Origin: Bacteroidales bacterium
Lineage (GTDB): Bacteria > Bacteroidota > Bacteroidia > Bacteroidales > UBA4181
DNA: 35,469 bases
Reading direction: 5' to 3'
Assembly (NCBI GenBank): GCA_031265445.1
Contig: JAISCQ010000125.1
Location: 1-35,469 of the forward strand
Shown here: in pieces, positions 1,842 to 30,382 of the stretch
How positions within the stretch are numbered: position 1 is the stretch's first letter
How the letters are laid out: the number at the start of each line of letters is the position of its first letter
Program-made: the position numbers and the translations under genes
The notes under the pieces: generated by a model
What the model was told of the DNA's origin: nothing
What the model saw: the letters and a program-made list of their open reading frames with translations, nothing else
The model's database searches: none

Positions 1842-4619
1842 ATGGATCATATGAAAAATCTCTTACTCTATTTCGGTTGCATACTGATGTTTTTCCCGGA
1901 TATCCCGGCGACCGGCGGCAATGATACCGACCGGTTGGGAAGTGTGCAGGATATAGAGGATTTGTGCAGGAAACAATCCGAACATTATTCTTACATGTGG
2001 TGGATCAATTCCGTCAAGGAAGGCCCTTTGAAATTTGCAGTGAAAACCGATCGGTATGCTTTTATATTTGACGAAAATACACTGAACTTTCGAAATTTGT
2101 TGATTGATGCGGATACGCGATCTGCCGAGGAAGTGTTGCGTTTGTCCACCGATGAATTATTTCCGGCGGCGGAGGTTCCCGATTTGTCTTTTGGGATGGA
2201 AACCCACGGCGTTTTTCATCCCTGTACGCAAGCTTCGCCTCGCGGCTTTGAGGATTGTCAGTTAATTCATACGGGACGGTTTCTGCAACAGCGATTCATC
2301 AACAATCTTCCGGGCCTTTCCGGTTACGAACTCTTGCAAAGCGGCCTGGACATCGTTGCATGGCCTGACCGCCTGTCGCTGATTCTGCGCCTGTCGCTTA
2401 CCGACGAAAGTCCCCGCGACGGAAGCGATGCCTTGATCCTCCGTTTCACCGTACCGGCGGCTTATCAGGCAGTATCCGTACCGGATGCGGGCGGGCTAAA
2501 CATATTCCGTCATCCGGTCACCGGCAGCGGATATATCATCGGCGCGGCAGACGCTTCCGCTTCCCTGACGGTTTCCGGAAACACGGTAGAAGCGCGGCTT
2601 CATCCTCAAAATCCGGCAGCCGATGAATATATGGTCGGGTTGACCGTTTATCCCGTATCGGATGTTGACGCCGCTTTACAGGGAATTTCCGCACAGGAGA
2701 ACAGTCAGCTAACGGTCACGGCGCAGCAAAGCGCTCCGGTCGGCGCGGCGCATGGAGTGGTGTACGATGCCGGCATGGGATGGTACCGCGTGCACCTGCG
2801 GAATGATTTTACCGGCGTTGCCGAACAGGACGACCGGCGCATGGAGCGGGTCTTTTTCACCATCGAAAATACAGGTTCGTCCGACCGGACGGTAAGGCTC
2901 AATTTTTCCAAAGAACGCTCCGTATATGAACAGACAGCAGGAAGCAATACCGGGATTTCCGGAATCTCGGCTATGATACGGGATGGCAATGAATATCCCA
3001 CGGGCATTGCGGTGCAACTTTCGAAAAACTGGCACATCACGGATTTTTATGGTTACGCCGCACATCGTTACCGGGGCAACTGGTATCACGGGATTACCGT
3101 CTTGCATATTCCTGCGGGCAGTCGCATCACGCTTGAATATACAAGCGTCAATGCATACTGGGGAACGGTTCCCGCCGCATCGCACGCCCAGCTGTGTCTG
3201 GCAGGATGGGGCAGCAACCAGCAGTGGAATGAATCGGCCATCGGGGCATGGGGCGAAAGCATCAGTTATGAACCCGATCAGGTACAGGCAGGCTCGCCTG
3301 TTTGCGATTCCCGCATTTTAATGGCGTATGATTCGCGGGGTAACAAAACGTTGTTTTCGGGCAATGTGGGCGGCGCCGATTTTTTCAATTGCCGCAAACC
3401 GGGCGGAAACGGGAGATCCTGGCACACAGCCGTAAAAACTTATTACAAGCGGTATTGTCCCAATTTTACGGAAGTGATCAATGCGGGAGAAATCATGGAA
3501 GGGCGCATCCGGTTTGATTATGCTGTTTCCATCGGAAGATCCGACGATTATGTGCGCGGCATCTACCGACTCAGGATGGATGTAAAGCAGGACGTCGCCT
3601 TCGACCGGCTGGATATTTTCCAGTTGGCATCGGAAGGTTATCACCTTTCGCAGTCGAGAAAGATAGCGGTGGGCAATGAAGACGGGATGATGATGGAACG
3701 CAGTGCACGCAATGGAAGCCCGTCTGCTTACGTCGACCGGAAAGAAGCCTTTTCCGGGGAAACGCCCTGGGTGAGTTTCTTCGATACGCCCTGCACGGAT
3801 GAAGAAGGAGCCGGCTGGGGCGCTCACTGGACAAGCGCCGATCGCGGTTTTGTCATCCGCAGCTGGAAATCCCGCATCAACGGCCAGACAAATGTGGCGC
3901 CTCACTGGCAGGAATATAGCGTAGAGACGGGCTATCTCCGTCCGGCTTCCATTGTGAACGTAACGCTGCCCGAAACATGCGTTTCACTGTCGGCAGGAGA
4001 CTTTGTGGAAGCGGAAATCGAGTGGTTCTTCCTCCCTCTTTTTGCCTCCCAGTACTGGGGCCCCAATGAAAACCTGAAAAAAGCCCTGCAACGCAACGGG
4101 AGCAGCTGGCGCATGACCCACCGCGAAGCGACGGGCAACCGCATCACCGTAGCCGCCGAGCGCGGAACCGTTGAAAGACATTATCCGATTGTGATTACCG
4201 CCGAAAACAACGAAGCGCATTTTACCGTCGCCGGAGGCATTGGCTATGTGCCGATAACCGTCAAAGGCTTGTCTTCCTATGTTCATCCTGCGCTCTATGT
4301 CAAAAAGAACGGGAAATGGAAAAAAATCGACCAGTCGAATCACGGAAACGATTTCTGGCAAATGGATTATTACCAATACACCGGTGAATGGGAATGTACC
4401 TGCAATGTAAGTCTGGATTCCGAACAGGATCAGCCCGTGACGCGGGAATTTATGTTCTTGCTGGACAGGGATGCGCCTATTGACGAAACAACATCCGTCA
4501 TCGCGACTGATGCGTCGCCTGCCGGGTTACGGATTTATCCCAATCCCGTGAAGGACAGGTTTTATTTCCGCCTGTCCTCTGAATGGGGCCGTTCCTTCCT
4601 TGTCGAAATGCGCGTGTAA
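1842..4619 (+). CDS. Large secreted protein, paralog A, with truncated T9SS sorting domain
   Basis: A 925-residue protein with a signal peptide (MKNLLLYFGC start); the ATG at 1851 fits a typical signal peptide and may be the true start instead of 1842. I do not recognise the family. It is a clear paralog of the protein at 7383-10292: both share SYMWW near the mature N-terminus, then KNWH, WYHGxT, HAQLCLxGWG, a Trp-rich QQW segment, GGIGYVP and DQxxHGND in the same order. The many Trp, Tyr and Gly residues and beta-type composition suggest carbohydrate binding or processing, consistent with the rhamnosidase between the two paralogs. The C-terminus begins as a T9SS type A sorting domain (LRIYPNPV, about residue 896) but stops after about 30 residues at EMRV, where a full domain has about 75. 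The stop lies in a 21-bp tandem repeat that replaces the missing part. Confidence 0.75.
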   Translation: MDHMKNLLLYFGCILMFFPDIPATGGNDTDRLGSVQDIEDLCRKQSEHYSYMWWINSVKEGPLKFAVKTDRYAFIFDENTLNFRNLLIDADTRSAEEVLRLSTDELFPAAEVPDLSFGMETHGVFHPCTQASPRGFEDCQLIHTGRFLQQRFINNLPGLSGYELLQSGLDIVAWPDRLSLILRLSLTDESPRDGSDALILRFTVPAAYQAVSVPDAGGLNIFRHPVTGSGYIIGAADASASLTVSGNTVEARLHPQNPAADEYMVGLTVYPVSDVDAALQGISAQENSQLTVTAQQSAPVGAAHGVVYDAGMGWYRVHLRNDFTGVAEQDDRRMERVFFTIENTGSSDRTVRLNFSKERSVYEQTAGSNTGISGISAMIRDGNEYPTGIAVQLSKNWHITDFYGYAAHRYRGNWYHGITVLHIPAGSRITLEYTSVNAYWGTVPAASHAQLCLAGWGSNQQWNESAIGAWGESISYEPDQVQAGSPVCDSRILMAYDSRGNKTLFSGNVGGADFFNCRKPGGNGRSWHTAVKTYYKRYCPNFTEVINAGEIMEGRIRFDYAVSIGRSDDYVRGIYRLRMDVKQDVAFDRLDIFQLASEGYHLSQSRKIAVGNEDGMMMERSARNGSPSAYVDRKEAFSGETPWVSFFDTPCTDEEGAGWGAHWTSADRGFVIRSWKSRINGQTNVAPHWQEYSVETGYLRPASIVNVTLPETCVSLSAGDFVEAEIEWFFLPLFASQYWGPNENLKKALQRNGSSWRMTHREATGNRITVAAERGTVERHYPIVITAENNEAHFTVAGGIGYVPITVKGLSSYVHPALYVKKNGKWKKIDQSNHGNDFWQMDYYQYTGEWECTCNVSLDSEQDQPVTREFMFLLDRDAPIDETTSVIATDASPAGLRIYPNPVKDRFYFRLSSEWGRSFLVEMRV

Positions 4620-4690
4620 ACGACATGCTTGCGGATGTAAATGATCTGCTTGTGCGTGTAAATGACGTGCCGACGCATGTAAATAATATA
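4611..4690. repeat. 21-bp-period tandem array A (about 3.8 units)
   Basis: Units begin at 4611, 4632, 4653 and 4674, each with a GYRTGTAAA-like or GGATGTAAA core followed by YGAYNTGC. The array starts inside the last codons of the preceding gene and supplies its stop codon (the TAA within GTGTAAA). It has the same 21-bp period as the arrays at 20421 and 27673, and its RTGTAA core resembles the 27673 array. Confidence 0.8.
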
Positions 4691-16624: not shown

Positions 16625-17263
16625 ATGAAGATTTTAGATTACAGATATATCATTTGGGATTGGAACGGAACATTGCTGGACGATGTTACTCCCGATTTGT
16701 TGACCGTGAATCAAATGATGAAGAATCGAAATCTCGGAGCTTTGACTTTACATGAGTACAGAAATCTATTTTGCTTCCCGATTGCCGATTTTTACAGAAA
16801 AATCAATTTCCCCGATGATATAAACTCGATTGCACGCGAATATCATGATATTTATTCTACTTACAAACAATATGAAAGATTACATCCATTTGCGGAAGAT
16901 GCGTTAAACTCAATCCAAAAGAATAATATCATGCAGTTCATTCTATCCGCAACAAAGGAAGATTCCTTACGCAAAGAAGTGGAAAAACATGGTATTTCCT
17001 CCAAATTCAAGGCCATATGCGGCTGTGAAGTTACAGGCGAAAAAAAGGAAAATCGAGGAAAAGAAATGGTTCGTTATTATCAGATTGAACCCGAAAAAAC
17101 CTTAATGATTGGGGATAGTTTTCACGATGCGGAAATTGCCCGCGCCCTTGGCTTTGACTGCATTTTATTTTCAGGCGGACACAACGACTTATCGCAACTG
17201 AATGATGCGAAAATAAACATATTCGACAATATGCAGAACTTGTTAGCGATAAGCCGCTATTGA
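16625..17263 (+). CDS. HAD-family hydrolase, phosphoglycolate-phosphatase-like
   Basis: A 212-residue cytoplasmic phosphatase of the HAD superfamily. Motif I is WDWNGTLLDD with nucleophile Asp12; the usual second Asp of DxDxT is Asn14, a variant common in one bacterial subgroup. Motif II is LSAT (Ser108), motif III Lys146 in NRGKEM, and motif IV MIGDSFHDAEIA with Asp164 and Asp168 for magnesium. A small helical cap lies between motifs I and II. The substrate is unknown; the gene resembles phosphoglycolate phosphatase (Gph-like) proteins. It is a single gene, convergent with tenA 20 bases downstream. Confidence 0.82.
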   Translation: MKILDYRYIIWDWNGTLLDDVTPDLLTVNQMMKNRNLGALTLHEYRNLFCFPIADFYRKINFPDDINSIAREYHDIYSTYKQYERLHPFAEDALNSIQKNNIMQFILSATKEDSLRKEVEKHGISSKFKAICGCEVTGEKKENRGKEMVRYYQIEPEKTLMIGDSFHDAEIARALGFDCILFSGGHNDLSQLNDAKINIFDNMQNLLAISRY

Positions 17264-17282
17264 ATGAAACGCGAGTTTCGTC

Positions 17283-17927
17283 CTACCATTTTTCCAGGTA
17301 ATATGCACTGTCCCAAAATTGGAACTCCAACCGGCTGGCTGTGATAAAAGCATCCGTCATCGCCCGCTGTTGTTTTCCGGTACATTGGGAAGCAACAGCG
17401 TCGCAGATATCAATGGCCTGGCTAACGAATACGCCAAATTCTTCGCTTGCGTAAGTGTCAATCCATTGTTGATACGGATTGTTTGCCGAATGATTTTTAT
17501 AGATGTAATCGCCAACCTCCCTGTAAATCCAAAAGCAGGGCAATGTGGCGGCCATACCCACTTCCACGGCATCCAGCGCAGCCGTGCTCTTCAGGAAATG
17601 ATTGTAGTGATGGCAGGCAGGTTCGGCGCAACCCGTATCGGTCAGATTAAAACTTCTGAAATACGATTCGTGCATTTCGCGCTCCACCACAATAACCATT
17701 TCCGCAAAGCGTATATACGCCAGTGAATCCTGAATGGAGCCGGCGCGTGCGGCAATAAGCGCGAAGGTTCTTCCGAACGATTCCAGGTAAATGGAATCCT
17801 GCGCGAGATAAAATTGAAATTTTTCCATCGGCAATGTCCCGTCCATTAACTCTTTGATATACGGCATGTCGATGATAGACTGATAAATCGGAAGCGTTTC
17901 CTTCCATGTTTTAGTTGACCAGTTCAT
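17283..17927 (-). CDS. tenA: Aminopyrimidine aminohydrolase / thiaminase II
   Basis: A 214-residue TenA-family protein. It hydrolyses aminomethylpyrimidine breakdown products of thiamin to hydroxymethylpyrimidine (HMP), feeding the base-degradation salvage route. Expected active-site residues are present: Asp44 and Tyr47 (LAQDSIYL), the catalytic Cys131 in LPCFWIYREVG and Glu201 in RLEFQFWD. The substrate-binding segment AEPACHHYNHFL (101-112) is in the usual place. The protein is all-helical, cytoplasmic and of the normal family length. It is the last gene of the thi operon; its start overlaps the thiD end by 17 bases. Its 3' end is convergent with the HAD gene, with a 19-base gap and no obvious terminator. 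Confidence 0.93.
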   Translation of the reverse strand: MNWSTKTWKETLPIYQSIIDMPYIKELMDGTLPMEKFQFYLAQDSIYLESFGRTFALIAARAGSIQDSLAYIRFAEMVIVVEREMHESYFRSFNLTDTGCAEPACHHYNHFLKSTAALDAVEVGMAATLPCFWIYREVGDYIYKNHSANNPYQQWIDTYASEEFGVFVSQAIDICDAVASQCTGKQQRAMTDAFITASRLEFQFWDSAYYLEKW

Positions 17928-18753
17928 TTTTGATAAGTTTTTGCGGATTAAAAAAATGGTTCAAAGGGCCGTTCCCTTTGCCTGTTTGTACGTCTTTCCC
18001 GTGAAAAATGGCTTGCTGTACATAATCCTGCGCCAAAGCCACTGCATCGGAAAAGGTTTTCCCCTGTGCGGTATAGCCTGCAATGGCAGACGACAGCGTA
18101 CAGCCCGAACCGTGCGTATTACCGGTATCGTATTTTTCGGAATGATATTCGCGTACCTGCCCGTCCGAAGGAAAATACAAAGAAGTGAGCTGCTTCAAAT
18201 TCAGATGCCCCCCTTTCAACAACAGGGAATTACAGCCTGACGCTCTGATTTTTTCGCCGGCAACATACATATCATCCACCGTTTCGATGGACATTTCAGC
18301 TAATATTGCGGCTTCGTCCAAATTTGGCGTGATGATGTCCGCCAGCGGGAACAATTGTTCGATCATTGAATGGATTGTTTTGTCTTCAATCAGTTTGTGG
18401 CCACTGGTAGCAACCATCACGGGGTCGAACACCAAACTTGTTTTGGGATATTTGCCGAGTACGCGGACAATGGTACTTACCAGTTCGCAACTGTGTACCA
18501 TGCCGATTTTAATCGCGTTCGGGAAAATATCATCCAAAACGGCGTGTATTTGTTCTTCTACGACTTCGCAGGGAATCGAATGGATAGATTTTACGCCCGT
18601 TGTATTCTGAACGGGCAGGGCGGTCAATACGGACGTGGCGTAACATCCCAGCGCCGAGACTGTTTTAATGTCTGCCTGAATGCCTGCGCCGCCGCTTCCG
18701 TCGAATCCTGCAATGGTAAGGACGGAAGGATAACTGTATTTTTTCTTTATCAT
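17911..18753 (-). CDS. thiD: Hydroxymethylpyrimidine / phosphomethylpyrimidine kinase
   Basis: A 280-residue ribokinase-fold enzyme that phosphorylates HMP and HMP-P to HMP-PP for coupling by ThiE. The N-terminal substrate motif GFDGSGGAGIQADIKT (16-31), the ALPVQNTTGV segment, VFDPVMVATSG (108-118), ITPNLDEA and the anion-hole motif THGSGCTLSSAIA with Cys218 are all present. The length is normal for ThiD. Its ATG overlaps the thiE stop (ATGA, 4 bases), so translation is probably coupled. In this operon it would take HMP released by TenA or imported from outside, because no thiC is visible. Confidence 0.95.
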   Translation of the reverse strand: MIKKKYSYPSVLTIAGFDGSGGAGIQADIKTVSALGCYATSVLTALPVQNTTGVKSIHSIPCEVVEEQIHAVLDDIFPNAIKIGMVHSCELVSTIVRVLGKYPKTSLVFDPVMVATSGHKLIEDKTIHSMIEQLFPLADIITPNLDEAAILAEMSIETVDDMYVAGEKIRASGCNSLLLKGGHLNLKQLTSLYFPSDGQVREYHSEKYDTGNTHGSGCTLSSAIAGYTAQGKTFSDAVALAQDYVQQAIFHGKDVQTGKGNGPLNHFFNPQKLIKNELVN

Positions 18754-19382
18754 GCTTTCTCGATTTGATTTCTGATTTCGTATGCCGCTTTTGCGGGATT
18801 ATCCGCGCCACAAATAGCCGAAACGACTGCGATACAGTCCGCTCCCGCCTTTATCGCCTCACAGGCGTTTTGAACATTCATGTTTCCTATGGCAATCAAC
18901 GGCTTGTCGGTTCGACTGCGGATTTCTTCGATACCCTGTATGCCCCATTCCGTTACCGTATCGCTCTTCGTTGGCGTTTGGAACACAGGGCTGATTCCCA
19001 AACAATCCGACGCTTGCGTGTCCTCATTTTCCAATTGCTCCAAATATTCTATCGAATACCCCAGCGAACGGCAATCTTTCCACGCTGAACGAACGTGCGT
19101 CGGGGAAATATCGCTATTACCCACGTGTATGCCGAAAGCGGACGATTGCATGGCGACTTCCAAATTGTCGTTGATAATCAGCGGAACCCGGTACCGGCTT
19201 AACCTGTCCTGCAATCGTAATGCTTTGTCAAGGAATTGAGCGGTAACAGCCGTCTTTTCCCTTAACTGAACAATATCCACGCCGCCCGATATGGCTTGTT
19301 CGGCAACATCCATAAAATTACATTTCGGACAACTGTCTTCCGAAATGACGAGGTATAGACGAAAAGGAAATTTATGCTGCAT
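18750..19382 (-). CDS. thiE: Thiamine-phosphate synthase
   Basis: A 210-residue TIM-barrel enzyme that couples HMP-PP with hydroxyethylthiazole phosphate to give thiamin phosphate. The start at 19382 (MQHKFPF) is preferred over the longer reading at 19397. Motifs are YLVISED at strand 1, DIVQLREK for pyrophosphate binding, LIINDNLEVAMQSSAFGIHVG for the pyrimidine site, SPVFQTPTKSD, and the C-terminal IAVVSAICGADNPAKA phosphate loop. In ordinary ThiE the second motif reads HLGxxD; here it is HVGNSD, still compatible. It overlaps the thiM 3' end by 11 bases and thiD by 4. Confidence 0.92.
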   Translation of the reverse strand: MQHKFPFRLYLVISEDSCPKCNFMDVAEQAISGGVDIVQLREKTAVTAQFLDKALRLQDRLSRYRVPLIINDNLEVAMQSSAFGIHVGNSDISPTHVRSAWKDCRSLGYSIEYLEQLENEDTQASDCLGISPVFQTPTKSDTVTEWGIQGIEEIRSRTDKPLIAIGNMNVQNACEAIKAGADCIAVVSAICGADNPAKAAYEIRNQIEKA

Positions 19383-20187
19383 TGACTGCCTCCACACGTA
19401 TGAGTTGTTTTATTTCTTCCAATGTGATATTGTAGAGTTTATCCAAAAGCAGGACTTGCAGGCTTCCCGTTCCTGCGGCCTGTCTGGCGGCAATCTCTCC
19501 CGAAATGCCGAACAGGGCTGTTGCAGCAAGTACCGCCTCGGCTTTGTTTTCGATGCCTGCGATAAATGCCCCGATGACAGCAGTCGCGGAACAGCCCAGG
19601 CCCGTAACCCTTGTCATCATCGTACTGCCGTTGCGGACATAATAAATTTGCCACCCGGTAACAATGATGTCGGTTTCGCCCGAAACGCAAACAATAGAGC
19701 CAAATTCCCGATTCAGGCATTGTGCTGCGGAAACGGCTTCATTGCTTTGAGCCGTGCTGTCAACGCCTTTGGTTGTTGTAAGATTGTGTTTGGCCAACGC
19801 CAGTATTTCCGAAGCATTGCCGCGTATAACCGTTGGCTTGAACGCTAAGAGCTGTTCCAAAACACTGTTCCTGTAAGGTGTAGCGCCTGCTCCGACAGGG
19901 TCGAGTATCCACGGCTTTTGCAGTTGACTGGCTCTTTCTGCCGCCCGAATCATCGAAGCAACCCAATATTCGTCCAGCGTTCCGATATTGATAACCACCG
20001 ATTGGCATATCTGTACCATATCGTCAATTTCGGGATGCGCATGTGCCATGACAGGCGAAGCCCCAACTGCTAAAACAGCATTGGCGGTATTGTTCATTAC
20101 CACATAATTGGTAATGTTATGTACAAGGGGTGAAGTGTTTCTAATTTGAAGAATGTTCTTCCAAATTATTTGTTCCCACACATCCAT
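19372..20187 (-). CDS. thiM: Hydroxyethylthiazole kinase
   Basis: A 271-residue kinase that phosphorylates the thiazole alcohol (HET) for ThiE, the salvage alternative to the ThiFSGH route. Visible motifs are the N-terminal NITNYVVMNNTANAVLAVGA (24-43), LDPVGAGATPYR (95-106), IRGNASEI (121-128) and TGLGCSATA with Cys199 as the catalytic-site Cys. It is the first gene of the operon, about 155 bases downstream of the riboswitch promoter. Its presence, with no thiC, thiG or thiH visible, marks this operon as thiamin salvage. Confidence 0.95.
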   Translation of the reverse strand: MDVWEQIIWKNILQIRNTSPLVHNITNYVVMNNTANAVLAVGASPVMAHAHPEIDDMVQICQSVVINIGTLDEYWVASMIRAAERASQLQKPWILDPVGAGATPYRNSVLEQLLAFKPTVIRGNASEILALAKHNLTTTKGVDSTAQSNEAVSAAQCLNREFGSIVCVSGETDIIVTGWQIYYVRNGSTMMTRVTGLGCSATAVIGAFIAGIENKAEAVLAATALFGISGEIAARQAAGTGSLQVLLLDKLYNITLEEIKQLIRVEAVNAA

Positions 20188-20263
20188 AATTATTTTATTG
20201 AAAAATAAAATTTATGGCAATAGAGGTTTCCTGGAAAATGCAAATAAAATATGCGGAAGAAAC

Positions 20264-20340
20264 GCTGACTTATTCCCTACGTCGGTGTGAGCCGTATCAG
20301 GTTCAAAGGGACTATCTCAACTCTTTTCGGAATACCCCTA
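20264..20340 (-). ncRNA. TPP riboswitch (thi element)
   Basis: Read on the minus strand, the region starts with GGGGUAUUCC, then has UUGAGAUAG, the core CCUUUGAACCUGAUAC, and the pyrophosphate-helix end ACACCGACGUAGGGAAU. These match the THI-box consensus (GGGGUGCC, CUGAGA, CCCUUUGAACCUGAU, CGUAGGGAA) in order and spacing. It ends about 75 bases before the thiM start codon, leaving room for an expression platform that controls ribosome access or termination. It should shut the salvage operon off when TPP is plentiful. Confidence 0.95.
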
Positions 20341-20349
20341 AAGCCGTTG

Positions 20350-20382
20350 CAAAGATAATGAAATTAATCTAACTTCCGCAAA
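20350..20382 (-). promoter_or_regulatory. Promoter of the thi operon
   Basis: On the minus strand TATCTTTG occupies 20357-20350 and matches the Bacteroidota -7 box exactly. TTTG at 20382-20379 is a good -33 element, with 21 bases between the two. The predicted transcription start, about 20343, lies just before the first base of the riboswitch. Confidence 0.75.
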
Positions 20383-20420
20383 TTGAAAAATACAAGCAGT
20401 ACGGAAAAAAATCAAAATAA

Positions 20421-20630
20421 GTCTCGCAGACGCGTGTTTTTGTCTCGCAGACACGTGTTTGCGACTCGCAAGTTCGCTATTTTGACGTCCATATGCGTAT
20501 CCGCAACTTGCAGATACTCGTTATCAATCAGCAAATCCGCATTCGTGACTTCCGGATCCGCATCCGCGCCTTTCAAATTTGAAGCGTTCATCCACGGGAA
20601 TGTCATTGCGATCCGCAGATTTGAAGGCGC
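20421..20630. repeat. 21-bp-period degenerate tandem array B (10 units)
   Basis: Ten consecutive 21-base units start at 20421. The first three share CTCGCARGW-like cores (GTCTCGCAGACGCG, GTCTCGCAGACACG, GACTCGCAAGTTCG). Later units drift (GACTTCCGGATCCGC, GATCCGCAGATTTG) but keep exact phase, with no indel across 210 bases. The region lies upstream of the thi promoter and outside any convincing gene. The 64-residue minus-strand frame and the plus-strand frame that stay open across it are by-products of a period divisible by three; neither has recognisable features. Confidence 0.8.
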
Positions 20631-20825
20631 GGACGTAAACTTATGCTAACCGTCAAAAAAAACCCGCAACAAATAAAACAATTACTTTTTTGTTTTTGTT
20701 CGAAAAGGATTTATATTTACCGTCGATTTTTTGATTCAAAAACATCTTGATCATGTCGAAATCTTTCGAAAATTTGTTGCCCGTAATAAGTTTTATAAAT
20801 ATTTGTAAGGCGCAAAAATTTATCT

Positions 20826-20948
20826 ATGCCGAGATTAGAAAAAATAGAACAAGAACGAAATCAAAAAATGGAATTTGCCAAACGCCTCACGATTCGGGAA
20901 GGGTTTAGAGGCGAAACAATGTGGAAGGTTATCGCATATAATTTTTAA
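20826..20948 (+). CDS. Very small ORF, 40 residues, upstream of small membrane protein
   Basis: ATG at 20826 to TAA at 20948: MPRLEKIEQERNQKMEF then AKRLTIREGFRGETMWKVI. The N-terminal half is a charged, probably helical segment. It lies 20 bases before the start of the next gene on the same strand, which suggests a small cotranscribed peptide or leader. I do not recognise it, it has no clear ribosome-binding site, and the call rests only on position and the helical charge pattern. Confidence 0.3.
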   Translation: MPRLEKIEQERNQKMEFAKRLTIREGFRGETMWKVIAYNF

Positions 20949-20968
20949 AAATCAACAAAATAAAAAAA

Positions 20969-21292
20969 ATGGCACAGATAAAAAATATAGAAGGGCTAAC
21001 AGTAGCCGAATTGAACAACGAGTTGTCGCGTGGCGGCAAGTTTGTAATGTTTCAATATTGTGTTTCAATTGTTGTAATGACTTTCAGACGGTCTTCCGAT
21101 ATCTATTTTGTCAGAGCAGGTGAATCGACGATAAAGCATAGCATTGGCTATACCTTGCTGACTTTGTTGCTGGGTTGGTGGGGTATTCCGTGGGGACCGA
21201 TTTATACAATCGGCTCACTTTATACGAACCTGTCAGGCGGAAAAGATGTTACACGGGAAGTACTTAATTCACTTAACAATAGTAGTCAGTAA
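20969..21292 (+). CDS. Conserved small membrane protein with GWWGIPWGPIYT motif
   Basis: A 107-residue protein. The N-terminal half is an alpha/beta segment (ELNNELSRGGKFVMFQYCVSIV) that includes a MTFRRSSDIYFVR strand pair. It is followed by a hydrophobic hairpin with YTLLTLLLGWWGIPWGPIYTIGSL (about 70-92), probably one or two membrane segments. The end is soluble (GGKDVTREVLNSL). The RRSSDIYF and GWWGIPWGP signatures recall a small, widespread hypothetical membrane family in bacteria; no function is assigned. The start at 20969 (MAQIKN) follows an A-rich leader. Confidence 0.7.
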   Translation: MAQIKNIEGLTVAELNNELSRGGKFVMFQYCVSIVVMTFRRSSDIYFVRAGESTIKHSIGYTLLTLLLGWWGIPWGPIYTIGSLYTNLSGGKDVTREVLNSLNNSSQ

Positions 21293-21594
21293 CTTATGAA
21301 TAATATCCCTCAAACCAAAACCTCGTATGATGAATCTCCTGCGAAGATTTGTTGATAGCTCTGAAAGAGCGTAATCCGATTTGTTGCATTTGATTCCGCC
21401 CTTTCAGGCCTTACAGGGCGAAATCAATTTTATCCTCAATGCGACAATTTGAATTGCTCCCACATAAAATTTTACCGGACAGCAGTGATTAATTTTATAA
21501 TCACGGTATGTACGATCCCATCGGAATTGAATCTTCGTTCAAAAGGTTTTCCTGAAATATAAATTATTGTCGTATCTTCGCCTCCAAATAAAAC
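21293..21594. other. Intergenic region with small hairpins
   Basis: A 302-base gap. It contains the hairpin GCTC-tgaaa-GAGC (21358-21370), a stem CGCCCT/AGGGCG (21397-21402 with 21415-21420) whose loop reads TTCAGGCCTTAC, and a 7-bp hairpin GTGATTA/TAATCAC at 21485-21504. None is followed by a good T-run. The rest is AT-rich with no gene I can support; the tatA promoter lies at its right end. Confidence 0.5.
21573..21580 (+). promoter_or_regulatory. Probable -7 box for tatA-lolD
   Basis: TATCTTCG differs from the consensus TAnnTTTG at one position. It lies 14 bases before the first possible ATG at 21595, giving a very short leader. Confidence 0.45.
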
Positions 21595-22098
21595 ATGATG
21601 ATGTTATCGATGGTACTTTTTATTAGTGGTGGCGAAATATTTATTATTTTGCTGGCCATATTGATATTTTTTGGCGCCGATAAAATTCCGGAATTTGCGC
21701 GGATGATGGGTAAAGGTGTTCGTGAATTCAAAAAAGCCACGGACGACATCAAGCGCGAGTTTAACGAGAATTCGTCGGGTATCATGGACGATATCAAGTC
21801 GATCAGGGATGATATGACGGGTATCGGCAGTGATCTGACCCATACCCTGACGAAGGGAGTTGCGGAGCCGATGCAGGAAACTGCTAACGAAACCGCAAAG
21901 ACTTTCGAAGAGTATCAGGATCCGTACAACACGGATTATTATTACAATAATCCGTATGATATTGGGAACAGCGGGAACGAATACCGACAGGAACTACAGG
22001 ATGCATCACCGGAAGTCGTCGCCGAAAGCGCAGAGGCGACGGACAATCGGCACATTGGTGCAGAACAGGCCAATCCCACTAAACCTGTTGATGCATGA
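21595..22098 (+). CDS. tatA: Twin-arginine translocase subunit TatA/TatE-like
   Basis: A 167-residue protein. A short periplasmic N-terminus is followed by one membrane helix (about 13-27, [14 protein letters not shown]) and the hinge Phe-Gly (26-27). An amphipathic helix comes next, with [19 protein letters not shown] (30-48), the pattern that defines TatA/TatB proteins. The tail (about 50-167) is longer than in E. coli TatA, charged, and includes a Tyr/Asn-rich stretch ([14 protein letters not shown]). No tatC is visible in the window. Three ATGs occur close together at 21595, 21598 and 21601, so the exact start is uncertain. The TGA overlaps the ATG of the ABC gene by 4 bases (ATGA). Confidence 0.88.
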
Positions 22099-22757
22099 TC
22101 CGTGGCGAAAATATCACCAAAGCGTTTGGTAATCTACAGGTTCTTAAAGGGATTGATATACAGATACCCAAAGGAAAGGTTGTATCTATTGTGGGAGCGA
22201 GCGGCGCGGGTAAAACAACCCTGTTGCAGATACTCGGAACGCTGAGCCGTCCCGGTTCGGGAAAAGTGTACGTCGATCAAAAGGAAGTGAGCAGTCTGGG
22301 CGAAAAGGAAATATCGCAATTCCGCAACCGCAACATTGGCTTCGTGTTCCAATTCCATCATCTGTTGCCCGAGTTTACCGCACTCGAAAACGTGTGTATC
22401 CCTGCATACATCAACCATGCTTCGAAGGCCAAAGCCGAACAGAAAGCCAGGGAACTGTTAACATTCCTCGGGCTTGCCGACCGTATGACCCATAAACCGG
22501 ATGAACTGTCGGGCGGCGAGCAGCAGCGGGTATCGGTAGCGCGGGCGCTCATCAACGATCCGATGGTGATCTTTGCCGACGAGCCTTCGGGGAACCTCGA
22601 TTCGCATAACAAACAGGAGCTGCACGCCCTGTTTTTTTCTCTGCGCGATACCTTCGGGCAAACATTCGTTATCGTAACCCACGATACTCACCTGGCCGAG
22701 ATGTCGGACATCAAATACGAAATGAACGACGGGAAGATCGTGAAGCGTGAAGGATGA
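22095..22757 (+). CDS. lolD: ABC transporter ATP-binding protein, LolD/MacB-type
   Basis: A 220-residue ATPase of the LolD family, which powers lipoprotein release from the inner membrane with LolC/LolE. Walker A is GASGAGKTT (34-42), the Q-loop [12 protein letters not shown] (86-97), the signature LSGGEQQR (138-145), Walker [10 protein letters not shown] (158-166), the D-loop NLDS and the H-loop THD. The length and the insert [13 protein letters not shown] are typical of LolD. It is translationally coupled to tatA. No LolC/LolE permease lies next to it, so the partner is elsewhere in the genome. A generic MacB-type ATPase cannot be excluded. Confidence 0.82.
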
Positions 22758-22842
22758 TGCGTGAGAAATCAAAATACGTTCTCCTTTTCTTCATTCCCTG
22801 TTGTTCTTTACTTTTCGTTTTTCACGCTTCATTCTTCACTAA

Positions 22843-23436
22843 ATGAAAGTAGTTATTATCAAATATAACGCCGGTAATATCTTTTCCGTCGATTACGCAT
22901 TGAGGCGATTAGGCATTAGAGCCGAAATCACCGCCCATCATGAAAAAATCCGTCAGGCGGATAAAGTAATCTTTCCCGGAGTGGGAGAGGCGTTCACCAC
23001 CATGCAGTATCTGCAACAACACGGTCTGGACCATGTAATACGCAACCTGCAACAGCCGGTATTGGGCATTTGCATTGGGATGCAACTGATGTGTCGTCGT
23101 TCGGAAGAAGGAAACACGCCATGTTTGGGCATTTTTGACGAAGATGTGATGCGGTTCCGGTCTTCGCCGGGGATCAAAGTACCGCACATGGGGTGGAACA
23201 GCCTGAAAGACATGCATTCGCCACTGTTTGACGGTTTACCCGACAATCCATACGTATATTTCGTACACAGTTATTATGCTGCCGTGGGAACGTACACCAT
23301 TGCCGCAGCATCGCATCCGGAACCTTTCAGCGCCGCCCTGCAGCATGATAACTTTTATGCTTTACAGTTCCATCCCGAGAAAAGCGGCAGGGTAGGAGAA
23401 GATATCCTCAGAAACTTTATGGAGAAGACGCATTAG
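22843..23436 (+). CDS. hisH: Imidazole glycerol phosphate synthase glutaminase subunit
   Basis: A 197-residue class I glutamine amidotransferase that hydrolyses glutamine and passes ammonia to HisF in histidine biosynthesis. The catalytic triad is visible: Cys77 in LGICIGMQL, then His177 and Glu179 in ALQFHPEKSG. Supporting segments are IFPGVGEAF (43-51), VPHMGWNSL (113-121) and YFVHSYY (139-145). The length is normal. No other his gene is in the window: downstream is the convergent putA and upstream is lolD (85-base gap). Confidence 0.95.
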   Translation: MKVVIIKYNAGNIFSVDYALRRLGIRAEITAHHEKIRQADKVIFPGVGEAFTTMQYLQQHGLDHVIRNLQQPVLGICIGMQLMCRRSEEGNTPCLGIFDEDVMRFRSSPGIKVPHMGWNSLKDMHSPLFDGLPDNPYVYFVHSYYAAVGTYTIAAASHPEPFSAALQHDNFYALQFHPEKSGRVGEDILRNFMEKTH

Positions 23437-27263: not shown

Positions 27264-27375
27264 ATTTTCGTAACCGCATGCAAGCGAAGCGCAGCTTGCG
27301 GAAGACGCGTCCTGCCTTTCAGGCAGCGGCCGAGACATCTCCTTTCCGCAGGTCGCGACCTGCGGTTATGAAAAT
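27264..27375. repeat. 112-bp element with 15-bp inverted terminal repeats and internal palindrome
   Basis: ATTTTCGTAACCGCA at 27264-27278 pairs with TGCGGTTATGAAAAT at 27361-27375 (14 of 15). Inside are a hairpin with arms GCAAGC and GCTTGC (about 27280-27299), the short palindrome CTGCCTTTCAGGCAG near 27312, and a perfect 20-bp palindrome at 27346-27365, CCGCAGGTCG with its complement. The form resembles a REPIN or small MITE-like element. No target-site duplication was evident. Confidence 0.5.
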
Positions 27376-27573
27376 CCGGCTTTTCAAGCCGCCGGACTCC
27401 GTTTTTTCGCCACATCAAAAACCTTATTTTCACCTCATTCAAATAACAAAACAACCTCGGTAGCCCGTGTAGAAATCACATCCAATAACCTTATTACCTT
27501 ATTAAAATAAAAACAAAATACAATAATTGATACACGCATTTTGTTTTTACCATGTTCATGTTTGACAGTTGCC

Positions 27574-27646
27574 GATGCCATTACAGAGACGCGATGCCGT
27601 TACAGAGACGCGATGCCGTTACAGAGACGCGATGCATCGCGTCTCT
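27574..27646. repeat. 19-bp tandem repeat ending in GAGACGCGATGC palindrome
   Basis: Three 19-base units, GATGCCRTTACAGAGACGC, start at 27574, 27593 and 27612. A fourth start completes a perfect palindrome, GAGACGCGATGC with its complement, at 27624-27645 (24 bp counting the flanking A/T pair). The same palindrome in a longer 28-bp form lies at 34564-34591. The tandem units look like amplified copies of the left half of that palindrome. Confidence 0.75.
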
Positions 27647-27672
27647 ACGCGGTATGGTGGGCGGGTACAGGC

Positions 27673-27983
27673 GGATGTAAGATACGTACCACAGCATGTA
27701 AGATACATATCACTGTGTGTAAGATGCATACCACGGCATGTAAGATGCATACCACGGCATGTAAGATGCGTACCACGGCATGTAAGATGCATACCACGGC
27801 ATGCAAGATGCATACCACGGCGTGTAAGATGCATACCACGGCGTGTAAGATGCATACCACGGCATGTAAGATGCATACCACGGCATGTAAGATGCTTACC
27901 ACGGCATGTAAGATGCATACCACGGCATGTAAGATGCATACCACGGCGTGTAAGATTCGTACCACGGCATGTAAGATGCATCA
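27673..27983. repeat. 21-bp-period tandem array C (14 full units plus a partial)
   Basis: Fourteen full 21-base units and one partial, consensus GCATGTAAGATGCATACCAC plus G, start at 27673. Variation is mostly A/G at the third base of the unit (GCATG or GCGTG) and in ATGCATA/ATGCGTA/ATGCTTA. The first two units are the most diverged. There are no unique spacers, so this is not CRISPR. The repeat core RTGTAA is similar to array A (4611) and the period is the same as arrays A and B. Confidence 0.9.
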
Positions 27984-27994
27984 GGATGCTTCCA

Positions 27995-30382
27995 TCATTC
28001 GCTCTTGAGCGCTTTTACAGGGTTGGCGGTTGCCGCTTTCACCGCCTTCCAGCCGACGGTCAGCAAGGTAAGCGTCACCGTGATGATTCCCGCCAGGGCA
28101 AACATCCGCCAGTCGATATCGATGCGATAGGCATAATCCTGCAACATACCCTCCAGCCAATAAAAGGCCAGCGGGAAAGCGATGAGCATGGCGATGCCCA
28201 CCAGGATGAGAAATTCTTTCGAAAGCATCTCAACGATCGCAGCTACACTGGCGCCAAGCACCTTGCGAATACCGATTTCCTTAGTTTTGGTTTCGGCGGT
28301 GAAGGTAACCAGGCCAAAAAGTCCAAGACACGACACCAGAATGGCGATAAAAGCAAAAATATTGAATAACCGACCAGTACGAATATCGTTTTTGTAAACC
28401 CTGTCAAAATCCTCATCCATGAAACTGTAATCAAAAGGCAGGTCGGGATCATATCCCCTGTACACGTTCTCCACAACCTTCAGCGCATCGATTGCATTGC
28501 CCGGGACTGTTTTCACGTACAAATAACTCGCCCGGGGATTTACCTTGATGAGTAAAGGGCCGATCTTTTCGTGCATATTCGTAAAGTGAAAATCTTCCGT
28601 TACCCCAATGATCGTAGCATTGCTGCCTTCCATGTTGCGGATCTGTTTGCCCACCGGATCGTGCAGGCCCATCTGCGCCGCCGCTTCCCTGTTGATGATA
28701 AAACTGTTATTGTCGGCCGGAGTTCCTGAGAAATTAACGCCTTCGGCAAGCTTGATTCCCATCGTGGGGATGAAATCCCGATCCGTAGCCAGGATGGTAA
28801 ACGTCACCTGACGGTCGCCTTTTCCCTCCCAGTCGCCGCCGGCATTGAACTGCCGGATGTTGTTCAACGGCTGGGATACGATGGTAGCCCCTGCAACAGA
28901 CGCGGATTGCAACACGCGGGTTTTGACATCTTCCATATTTGTTTGCATATTCCGGGTCAGCCCCACGTAAAACACATGTTCTTTGTCATATCCCGGATTT
29001 TTCAGCCTGATAAACTGCATCTGCCGGTTGATGGTGAAGGCCCCGATGATCAGGATGACCGATGCCGCGAACTGCATCACCACCATGCTCTTCCGCACCA
29101 GCGCATGCACTCCTGTACGGCCATGGACAGCTTCACTGACTGTTTTTGGCCGCAAAGACAGCGCAAGAGCCGGGTAAATACCGGCAAACAGCGAAACGGC
29201 AAGGAACGCGAGCCCGAATATTGCCAGCGTCGACAGCGAAAACAGGTGGAATTCAAGCTGCTTGCCCGTGATCCGGTTATATAGCGGGAAGAGAAGATAA
29301 ATCAACAGCGTGGCTACGATCAGCGAGCAAAAGAAGAGCAGAAGCGACTCGTTGAAAAAATGGGCGAAGAGGTTCATTTTACGTGCGCCCAGCACGTTCC
29401 GTACGAAAATCTCCTTATTCCGCCGCGACGAACGCGCCGTTACAAGATTCACGTAGTTGATGCACGCGATCAGCAGCAACAGGGCAACAGCGACGGCAAA
29501 CAGGCGGCAGGCCTGCAATTTTGCACTGGCCGTGCCGTCGAGGTTGTACAGGTTTTCCTTTTCGAGCGGATGCAACAGGTACGTAAGCGCCCACTGGCTG
29601 TGGCGGCTGTGGATACCGGTTATTTTTTGCGCCGCGTTGCCGGCGTCCGCCCCGGGTTGCAGCAGAAAATACGTTTTGTAGTTCAGGTTGCCCCACCACT
29701 CGTTCAGCTGGGGCGTCAGGGCTTCGTAAAAGGCAAAGGAAAAGATGACGTTGTAGCGGTTCGACGAGTTTTCGGGCATATCGGCCATGACCCCCGTAAC
29801 ATGAAACTCGCGCCGCAAATGGTCGACAACGGTCTTGCCCACGGCCTCCCCATTACCGAATAAAACCCCGGCAGCGCTTTCCGACAGCACAACGGAGTTC
29901 CTGTCGGGCAGCACGGCATGGATATTACCTTCCCTGAGATGGAAACTGAAGATGGCGAAAAACGACGGGTCTACCAATGCGCAACGAACATCGCTCAATG
30001 TGTTGTCGCCGTGTTTGATGGTTTCCGTATCCCAGTATTCGAGGATACGGCAGGCATTTTCCACCTCGGGGATTTCGTTTTTGGCCATGCCTGCAATCGG
30101 AGGAGACGATACTTTCCAGTACTCCTGCCTGTCGCCCATATTGAAAGAGGTTACCGACAGGTAAATATCCCTGCTCCTCCTGTGAAACTTATCGAAACTC
30201 ATCTCATCATTCACCCAGAGCAAAATAAGAAGTACTGCTGCCAGGCAAACGGCCATGCCTGCAATGTTGATCCACGAGTACAAGCCGTTACGGCGCAAGT
30301 TGCGGATGGCGATGCGAAAAGAACCCCACCCGAACGGGGCGTGTTTTGCATTTTGCGAATCGGGAAATAATGTATGGTTCAT
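27995..30382 (-). CDS. ABC transporter permease, FtsX/MacB-like
   Basis: A 795-residue permease with two MacB-type halves. The first membrane segment, about residues 35-56 (YSWINIAGMAVCLAAVLLIL), is followed by a MacB periplasmic core domain. Further segments occur around 280-300, 340-365 and 385-410; a second periplasmic domain follows, with SFMDEDFDRVYKNDIRTGRLF before the last membrane group. FtsX-fold helices carry KEIGIRKVLGASVAAI. Such proteins export peptides, lipids or antibiotics with a partner ATPase. The ATPase gene lies 25 bases upstream (30408-31073). The 3' end is 12 bases from the 27673 tandem array, with no terminator seen. Confidence 0.88.
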   Translation of the reverse strand: MNHTLFPDSQNAKHAPFGWGSFRIAIRNLRRNGLYSWINIAGMAVCLAAVLLILLWVNDEMSFDKFHRRSRDIYLSVTSFNMGDRQEYWKVSSPPIAGMAKNEIPEVENACRILEYWDTETIKHGDNTLSDVRCALVDPSFFAIFSFHLREGNIHAVLPDRNSVVLSESAAGVLFGNGEAVGKTVVDHLRREFHVTGVMADMPENSSNRYNVIFSFAFYEALTPQLNEWWGNLNYKTYFLLQPGADAGNAAQKITGIHSRHSQWALTYLLHPLEKENLYNLDGTASAKLQACRLFAVAVALLLLIACINYVNLVTARSSRRNKEIFVRNVLGARKMNLFAHFFNESLLLFFCSLIVATLLIYLLFPLYNRITGKQLEFHLFSLSTLAIFGLAFLAVSLFAGIYPALALSLRPKTVSEAVHGRTGVHALVRKSMVVMQFAASVILIIGAFTINRQMQFIRLKNPGYDKEHVFYVGLTRNMQTNMEDVKTRVLQSASVAGATIVSQPLNNIRQFNAGGDWEGKGDRQVTFTILATDRDFIPTMGIKLAEGVNFSGTPADNNSFIINREAAAQMGLHDPVGKQIRNMEGSNATIIGVTEDFHFTNMHEKIGPLLIKVNPRASYLYVKTVPGNAIDALKVVENVYRGYDPDLPFDYSFMDEDFDRVYKNDIRTGRLFNIFAFIAILVSCLGLFGLVTFTAETKTKEIGIRKVLGASVAAIVEMLSKEFLILVGIAMLIAFPLAFYWLEGMLQDYAYRIDIDWRMFALAGIITVTLTLLTVGWKAVKAATANPVKALKSE

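Follow-up and report, generated by a model that had tools for sequence, protein, structure and literature searches.

The array at 20421-20630 is probably (at about 0.6) a degenerate non-coding minisatellite of ten near-palindromic 21-bp units, one of a population of arrays with a narrow range of unit lengths (mainly 21-23 and 41-42 bp), likely copied by whole units and likely no longer homogenised. The array and its phase, its dyad-symmetric consensus, the population of many unrelated array families, and their low gap rate were established here. The window, which is the whole stretch of 35,469 bases analysed, corresponds to contig C125 of an assembly (G000) of 4,605,076 bases in 309 contigs. 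The features discussed are listed in Table 1.

Table 1. Positions of features in the window.
Feature	Position	Strand	Basis or remark
Second 21-bp array, TGTAAATG core, 3.6 units	4609..4686	+	TRF 4609-4684
thi operon: tenA-like, thiD, thiE, thiM	17283..20187	-	Protein scan
TPP riboswitch (RF00059)	20256..20349	-	59.7 bits
Predicted Bacteroidetes-type promoter match of the thi operon	20350..20382	-	TTTG, 21 bases, TATCTTTG
Left flank, part of a dispersed repeat	20380..20417	+	Other copies on contigs C32, C129, C264, C295
Target: degenerate array, ten abutting 21-bp units	20421..20630	.	Consensus with 16-bp near-palindrome
Inverted copy within the array (arms 20563-20581 and 20616-20633)	20563..20633	.	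Inverted-repeat search
Right flank, dispersed leader-like sequence	20678..20778	+	Similarity to other copies
Short 19-bp array adjoining the third array	27573..27635	.	TRF
Third 21-bp array, TGTAAGAT core, about 15 units	27652..27981	+	TRF 27675-27981

Structure of the Target Array

The limits of the array and its 21-bp period, as given in the first-pass annotation, were correct. The mean match over lags of 21, 42, and 63 was 0.50, and a match this high was not reached at any of the periods 10-45 in 2000 first-order-Markov shuffles. The mean match was 0.47 without units 1-2 or 1-3. With the first two units removed, the observed value was still not equalled in 2000 shuffles; with units 1-3 removed, the top period on the lag statistic was 42, tied with 21. 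Tandem Repeats Finder detected the first 2.3 units only. Agreement with the consensus, which was derived from the same ten units that are scored against it, was 14, 15, 13, 15, 15, 13, 16, 10, 8, and 12 of 21 positions for units 1 to 10, respectively. The agreement of units 8 and 9 is therefore near chance, and units 3-7 are better preserved than the first-pass annotation had supposed.

The units are non-identical and run head to tail, as in VNTR minisatellites. Their consensus includes the near-palindromic GCAGATGCGCATTTGC; its dyad score was equalled by one of 200 column permutations, and the predicted folding ranked first of 60 (z = -2.64 versus column permutations). Covariation between partner positions was not significant (117 of 500 shuffles). 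The arms of the inverted copy are reverse complements except for one mismatch and one 1-base gap; the search returned two adjacent inverted repeats, which were merged by eye. The array is intergenic, sitting between the thi riboswitch and position 20969, and does not lie inside a conserved reading frame: the open reading frame that covers it (20383-20649) had no homologue at E 0.01. A coding origin of the arrays was rejected on this ground and because units of 22, 23, and 41 bp are not multiples of three.

The thi Operon and Its Surroundings

As had been noted from the sequence, the target lies upstream of the thi promoter, with the riboswitch, the promoter match, and thiM, thiE, thiD, and tenA all on the minus strand. 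Promoters of Bacteroidetes follow the consensus used for the TTTG-N21-TATCTTTG match. Two such matches occur in the window, and 20 of 100 shuffles contained as many; since this count is unremarkable, the weight of the match at 20350-20382 comes from its position. The nearest named records to ThiM, both Bacteroidales assemblies, were Gx485_bin136 (99%) and Tannerellaceae Gx485_bin124 (83%); the Gx485 isolates presumably come from termite-gut studies. In the 83% relative (L084), identity spans the region from the riboswitch to window position 20368 and then stops, so that the riboswitch is present at the thi site and the array is absent. The thi operon therefore does not need the array, and regulation of thi through the array was rejected on this ground; a thi regulatory role for the target is neither demonstrated nor required. 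The thi region of a closer genome (G003) is 98-99% identical, and its contig stops at 20421, the first base of the array; 21-bp arrays may thus break assemblies. For whole-unit turnover at the thi site, the comparison consisted of this contig, which ends at the array start, and the more distant L084, which has no array.

The left flank is the 38-bp stretch between the promoter match and the array. The dispersed repeat to which it belongs (about 40-90 bp) abuts the promoter match; its copies at L013:7796, L030:11173, L166:15660, and L181:6489 are intergenic and have a conserved T-rich stretch in common.

Population of Arrays in the Genome

A gapless autocorrelation scan was applied to the window and 60 further stretches of G000 (832,622 bases), three of which (C264, C270, and C295) were picked for their copies of the dispersed repeat and the rest by contig number. 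This first set contained 105 arrays, 30 of period 21, nine of period 42, seven of period 23, four of period 22, and none of period 20 or 24; a shuffled control gave no arrays in 153 kb. Twenty-five of the 30 period-21 arrays were intergenic according to a home-made codon-usage gene caller, which overlooks real genes, thiM and thiE included. The other intergenic periods were mainly 2 (16 arrays) and 7 (9 arrays). A second, separate set (31 stretches, 344,752 bases) yielded 41 arrays, with periods of 21 (8), 23 (5), 42 (4), 41 (2), 22 (1), and 24 (1).

From both sets, covering 1.18 of 4.6 Mb, 65 intergenic arrays were kept, or about 55 per Mb. Their periods were 21 (31 arrays), 42 (12), 23 (12), 22 (5), 41 (4), and 19 (1) bp. 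Joining units that agree at 15 or more of 21 positions (the maximum for permuted units being 15) sorts the 31 arrays of 21 bp into 23 sequence families, all within roughly a quarter of the genome. The target had been described as one of a family of arrays; this claim holds, and more strongly than it was made. The annotation had also asked whether other periods are as common: in the G000 sample 21 bp is the commonest minisatellite period, 20 bp is absent, and 24 bp occurs once, but 22- and 23-bp arrays occur too. Eleven of the 65 arrays lie less than 150 bp from a contig end, and the census therefore probably misses arrays. Genic 21-bp arrays that read as heptad repeats (among them L181:16257 and L051:134) were left out of the intergenic counts, and a TGTAAGAT array at L284:15014 was excluded as coding since it is crossed by an open frame. 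Long blocks of a 69-bp repeat at L019:8214-11408 are of the kind that codes for repeat proteins, and are probably leucine-rich repeats.

Within the window, the arrays reported at 4611 and 27673, with the same period and a different unit, were recovered by Tandem Repeats Finder at nearly these positions. A gap of 13 bp separates the end of the third array from the stop codon of the gene at 27995-30382.

The preference for 21 bp is not general in the genus sample, as the counts in relatives are low. In small samples, period 21 accounted for 0 of 15 arrays in G008 (nine were of period 7), 1 of 5 in G003, 1 of 6 in G002, 0 of 5 in G007 (two of period 22 and one each of 41, 42, and 84), 0 of 14 in G010, and 0 of 6 in G011. 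In 78 ThiM loci of other taxa (653,603 bases), 33 arrays were found, one of period 21 and two of period 24.

Length Constancy and Spacing of Core Motifs

To compare changes of letters with changes of length, each of the 65 arrays was aligned to itself by banded alignment after a shift of one unit. Since array limits taken from a gapless scan bias the gap counts downwards, two units were added at either end of each array to reduce this bias. Mismatches and gap openings numbered 776 and 18 in 21-bp arrays, 88 and 0 in 22-bp arrays, 116 and 1 in 23-bp arrays, 249 and 10 in 42-bp arrays, and 62 and 2 in 41-bp arrays. In dispersed non-coding repeats (39 alignments, three families) there were 541 mismatches and 55 gap openings, so gaps per mismatch were about 4-fold rarer in the 21-bp arrays. 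A first estimate of zero gaps in 21- and 42-bp arrays came from 16 arrays only and was superseded by this alignment. The arrays hold their length more tightly than other non-coding repeats, but in this a unit of 21 bp does not stand out: arrays of 22 and 23 bp, 17 of the 65, together had 204 mismatches and one gap.

Pairs of TGTAAGAT at spacings of 10-40 occurred at 103 places in G000, and all 100 of the spacings listed were 21; among nine genus genomes such pairs were found beyond G000 only in G003 (18, every one at 21). Pairs of TGTAAATG occurred in six of the nine genomes, and among 150 listed spacings 141 were 21, eight were 22, and one was 12. In viral contigs, the TGTAAATG pattern formed single pairs of varied spacing at 79 of the 80 loci listed (at least 80 exist). 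In chains of TGTAA[AG], whose first five letters were set by the search itself, 270 of 277 spacings were 21, the core being invariant or well kept and the spacer free; such chains in G000, G003, and G004 had 644 mismatches and 13 length changes over 253 neighbouring pairs.

These spacings bear on the proposal that a DNA-binding or nucleoid protein docks on every unit, its bound copies touching because the 21-bp step aligns their sites on one face of the helix. Such docking would fit the constancy of the TGTAAGAT step, the kept core and free spacer of the TGTAA[AG] chains, and the prevalence of 21 and 42 bp, which outnumber all other exact helical-turn multiples among the arrays. The dyad symmetry of the target consensus, frequent in operators, and its place upstream of a promoter match would fit as well. 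The first-pass annotation had offered phasing on one helix face as one of two readings, and the peak at 21 and 42 bp agrees with it; however, the 22- and 23-bp arrays keep their own length at least equally well, and TGTAAATG admits 22-bp steps. Strict two-turn phasing as the sole cause is thereby weakened. Moreover, 23 unrelated families cannot have one sequence-specific protein in common, and L084 has no array at the thi site. Judged from sequence features of this kind, protein docking would be an unlikely explanation.

Orthologous Sites in Relatives

Six sites were compared between G000 and G003, and arrays were present in both genomes at five of them, one with an unrelated unit. The C128 site of G000 and its counterpart on C83 of G003 have the same array in a gap-free alignment, with species-specific letters in nearly every unit. 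At C165 (C325 in G003) the same two unit types form a mosaic in a different arrangement, and at C29 (C242) the TGTAAATG core is retained and the other half of the unit replaced. The C153 site contains about 4 units, versus at least 11 on C313, where the array reaches the contig end. At C125:27652 (C126), where the neighbouring gene is 97% identical, the G003 unit is TTGCGCCGCGTACTGATAACT and agrees with the G000 unit at no more than 9 of 21 positions; the 21-bp period is kept despite the unrelated unit. At the sixth site, C125:16543 (C147), a 41/42-bp array is present in G003 and none in G000.

Copy number also differs at window position 4609, with 3.6 units in G000 and 13 consecutive 21-bp TGTAAATG steps in G004, the genes on either side being 85% and 77% identical. 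Five relatives were checked at the C128 site: the array is present in G003, and none was found there in the more distant G002, G004, G005, and G007 (71-74% identical), although a weak signal of period 42 bp lies about 430 bp from the site in G002. The C295 site, checked in five relatives, was matched in G007 only, with no array beside the match. Several G003 contigs (C147, C126, C83, and C313) end at or in 21-bp arrays or no more than about 100 bp away from one.

Homogenisation and copy-number change are established by these comparisons for other arrays, and the duplication origin offered as the second early reading gained ground: whole-unit copying is backed by the differences in copy number, by the species-wide homogenisation, and by the mosaic units. 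For the target itself we infer the same process. The arrays would grow by whole-unit slippage or unequal recombination under a constraint on unit length, units of the wrong length would carry a cost, and the target would be an old member, most likely worn because it is no longer homogenised. Plain slippage predicts neither the narrow range of unit lengths nor the replacement of the unit at 27652.

The swap of units at 27652, beside a 97% identical gene, is the key case for another reading, in which a ruler blind to sequence acts on intergenic DNA: unrelated arrays would arise and replace each other at fixed sites, the step being kept by a nucleoid or repair machine that spans two turns. Length was kept at one site while sequence was replaced, which makes the period separable from the sequence. 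Such a ruler seems unlikely. Descriptions of bacterial minisatellites in the literature consulted treat one family at a time. In this genome a narrow unit length is common to many unrelated families, which opens two origins of that length to test: the mechanism that copies the units, or a factor that reads the helix at two-turn intervals.

Dyad Symmetry, Folding, and Covariation

Dyad symmetry placed 29 of 62 arrays, the target included, in the top 5% of column permutations. Column-permuted versions were beaten in predicted folding by more than two standard deviations in 23 of 44 arrays. Of 55 arrays, 16 showed covariation significant at the 5% level, compared with 11 of 165 control tests centred at random, although related units can inflate the count for the arrays. 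Column permutations revealed no dyad signal in the TGTAAGAT and TGTAAATG arrays. That 42-bp units are exact head-to-head pairs of 21-bp units was rejected, as their halves match at 7-14 of 21 positions; there is a tendency only, 9 of 12 arrays reaching 12-14 as reverse complements (null mean 9.9, 99th percentile 13).

Under whole-unit copying, hairpins formed by palindromic units would aid slippage and inverted template switching, which would fit the abundance of dyad-symmetric units as well as the inverted copy in the target. Hairpin-assisted slippage accounts for the palindromic arrays and for this copy, and not for the other arrays.

The same folding and covariation data would be expected if the units acted after transcription, folding as RNA or single strands and protecting or ending transcripts, mostly behind genes. 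The placement of the first set would suit this: of 29 arrays, 17 lie within 80 bp of a stop codon and 2 equally close to a start, in a hand count on home-made gene calls that comprised arrays whose nearest gene ends share one strand, the target not being among them. This position may, however, merely reflect the avoidance of promoters. The two largest families, TGTAAGAT and TGTAAATG, have no dyad signal. For the target, covariation is non-significant, and the array sits upstream of a promoter match rather than behind a called gene. A role as a transcribed hairpin array, as modelled from predicted folds, would accordingly be improbable.

Comparison with Known Systems

The closest described system is BrickBuilt of Porphyromonas gingivalis, which in the available part of its description (PMC4596501) is a 23-nt intergenic minisatellite and MITE that occupies 19 loci and has a leader, a tail, and small terminal inverted repeats. 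It resembles the arrays studied here, according to the same text, in its imperfect intergenic repeats placed head to tail without spacers, its unit length near 21-23 nt, its many loci in one Bacteroidales genome, its variable copy number between strains, and its predicted dyads and stem-loops. As portrayed there it is one 23-nt family, whereas 23 families of 21 bp were found here in a quarter of the genome. The target shares the intergenic position and the stem-loop prediction, but its unit is 21 bp and not 23 nt, and it has no tail, no terminal inverted repeats, and no identical unit at many loci. With three defining features absent, it was not filed as a member.

With BrickBuilt as a precedent (PMC4596501, as far as available), arrays could also move together with leader and tail sequences as mobile elements. 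C208 and C141 share, at 94% identity and with unlike outer flanks, a block of 259 bp that includes a palindromic array, and one REP-like tail is common to four TGTAAGAT arrays; the 71 genomic matches of that tail, however, greatly outnumber the arrays beside which it lies. For the target, whole-genome BLAST found a second place for the flank only and none for the array unit, which matched only itself in the sampled genome, and the left-flank repeat is also present elsewhere with no adjoining array. No match was found in phage and plasmid collections at E 1e-5, and the inverted repeats detected lie inside the array, with no terminal inverted repeat framing it. The target was rejected as part of a shared mobile element, and movement of the arrays as such elements is very improbable.

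In the part available of a survey of prokaryotic satellites (PMC6749651), the highest density for a bacterial chromosome is 23 satellites per Mb, compared with about 55 arrays per Mb here under different criteria. Those satellites are likewise non-coding, tandem, scattered over genomes, and mostly unrelated in unit, and no preference for 21 bp is reported in that part. The tandem repeats of Borgs (PMC9879509, in its available part) are similarly pervasive, fast-changing, both intergenic and genic, and composed of unrelated units; they are perfect and A-rich with varied intergenic unit lengths, unlike the imperfect arrays dominated by 21 bp. In the literature searched, in which subscription papers were mostly not covered, no description was found of one 21-bp period common to many unrelated intergenic arrays.

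In plasmid iterons, direct repeats of about 20-22 bp lie at the origin next to a rep gene and offer one site for every two helical turns. The arrays share the layout of direct repeats of about 21 bp and differ in that unit sequences vary between arrays; in addition, no replication initiator was found among the ten proteins scanned from 16625 to 23436. In CRISPR arrays unique spacers separate the repeats, while the units of the target abut.

Other Repeats near the Arrays

A REP-like palindromic repeat (window 27309-27391 and L208:397-600) has 71 matches in G000 and was matched in five of the six other genus genomes searched. A 26-bp palindrome at 27623-27648 (GAGACGCGATGCATCGCGTCTC and its neighbours) recurs, among the matches listed, at numerous positions in G003 and is present in G007 as well. 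The leader-like sequence to the right of the target (20678-20790) has at least four other copies that adjoin long (GA)n or (CT)n runs of 21 to 70 units (L022:4575-4825, L025:11370-11578, L015:12483-12687, and L023:1-200); the window copy has no such run. To our knowledge, long (GA)n or (CT)n runs are rare in bacteria, and the copies beside them suggest a phase-variable gene family.
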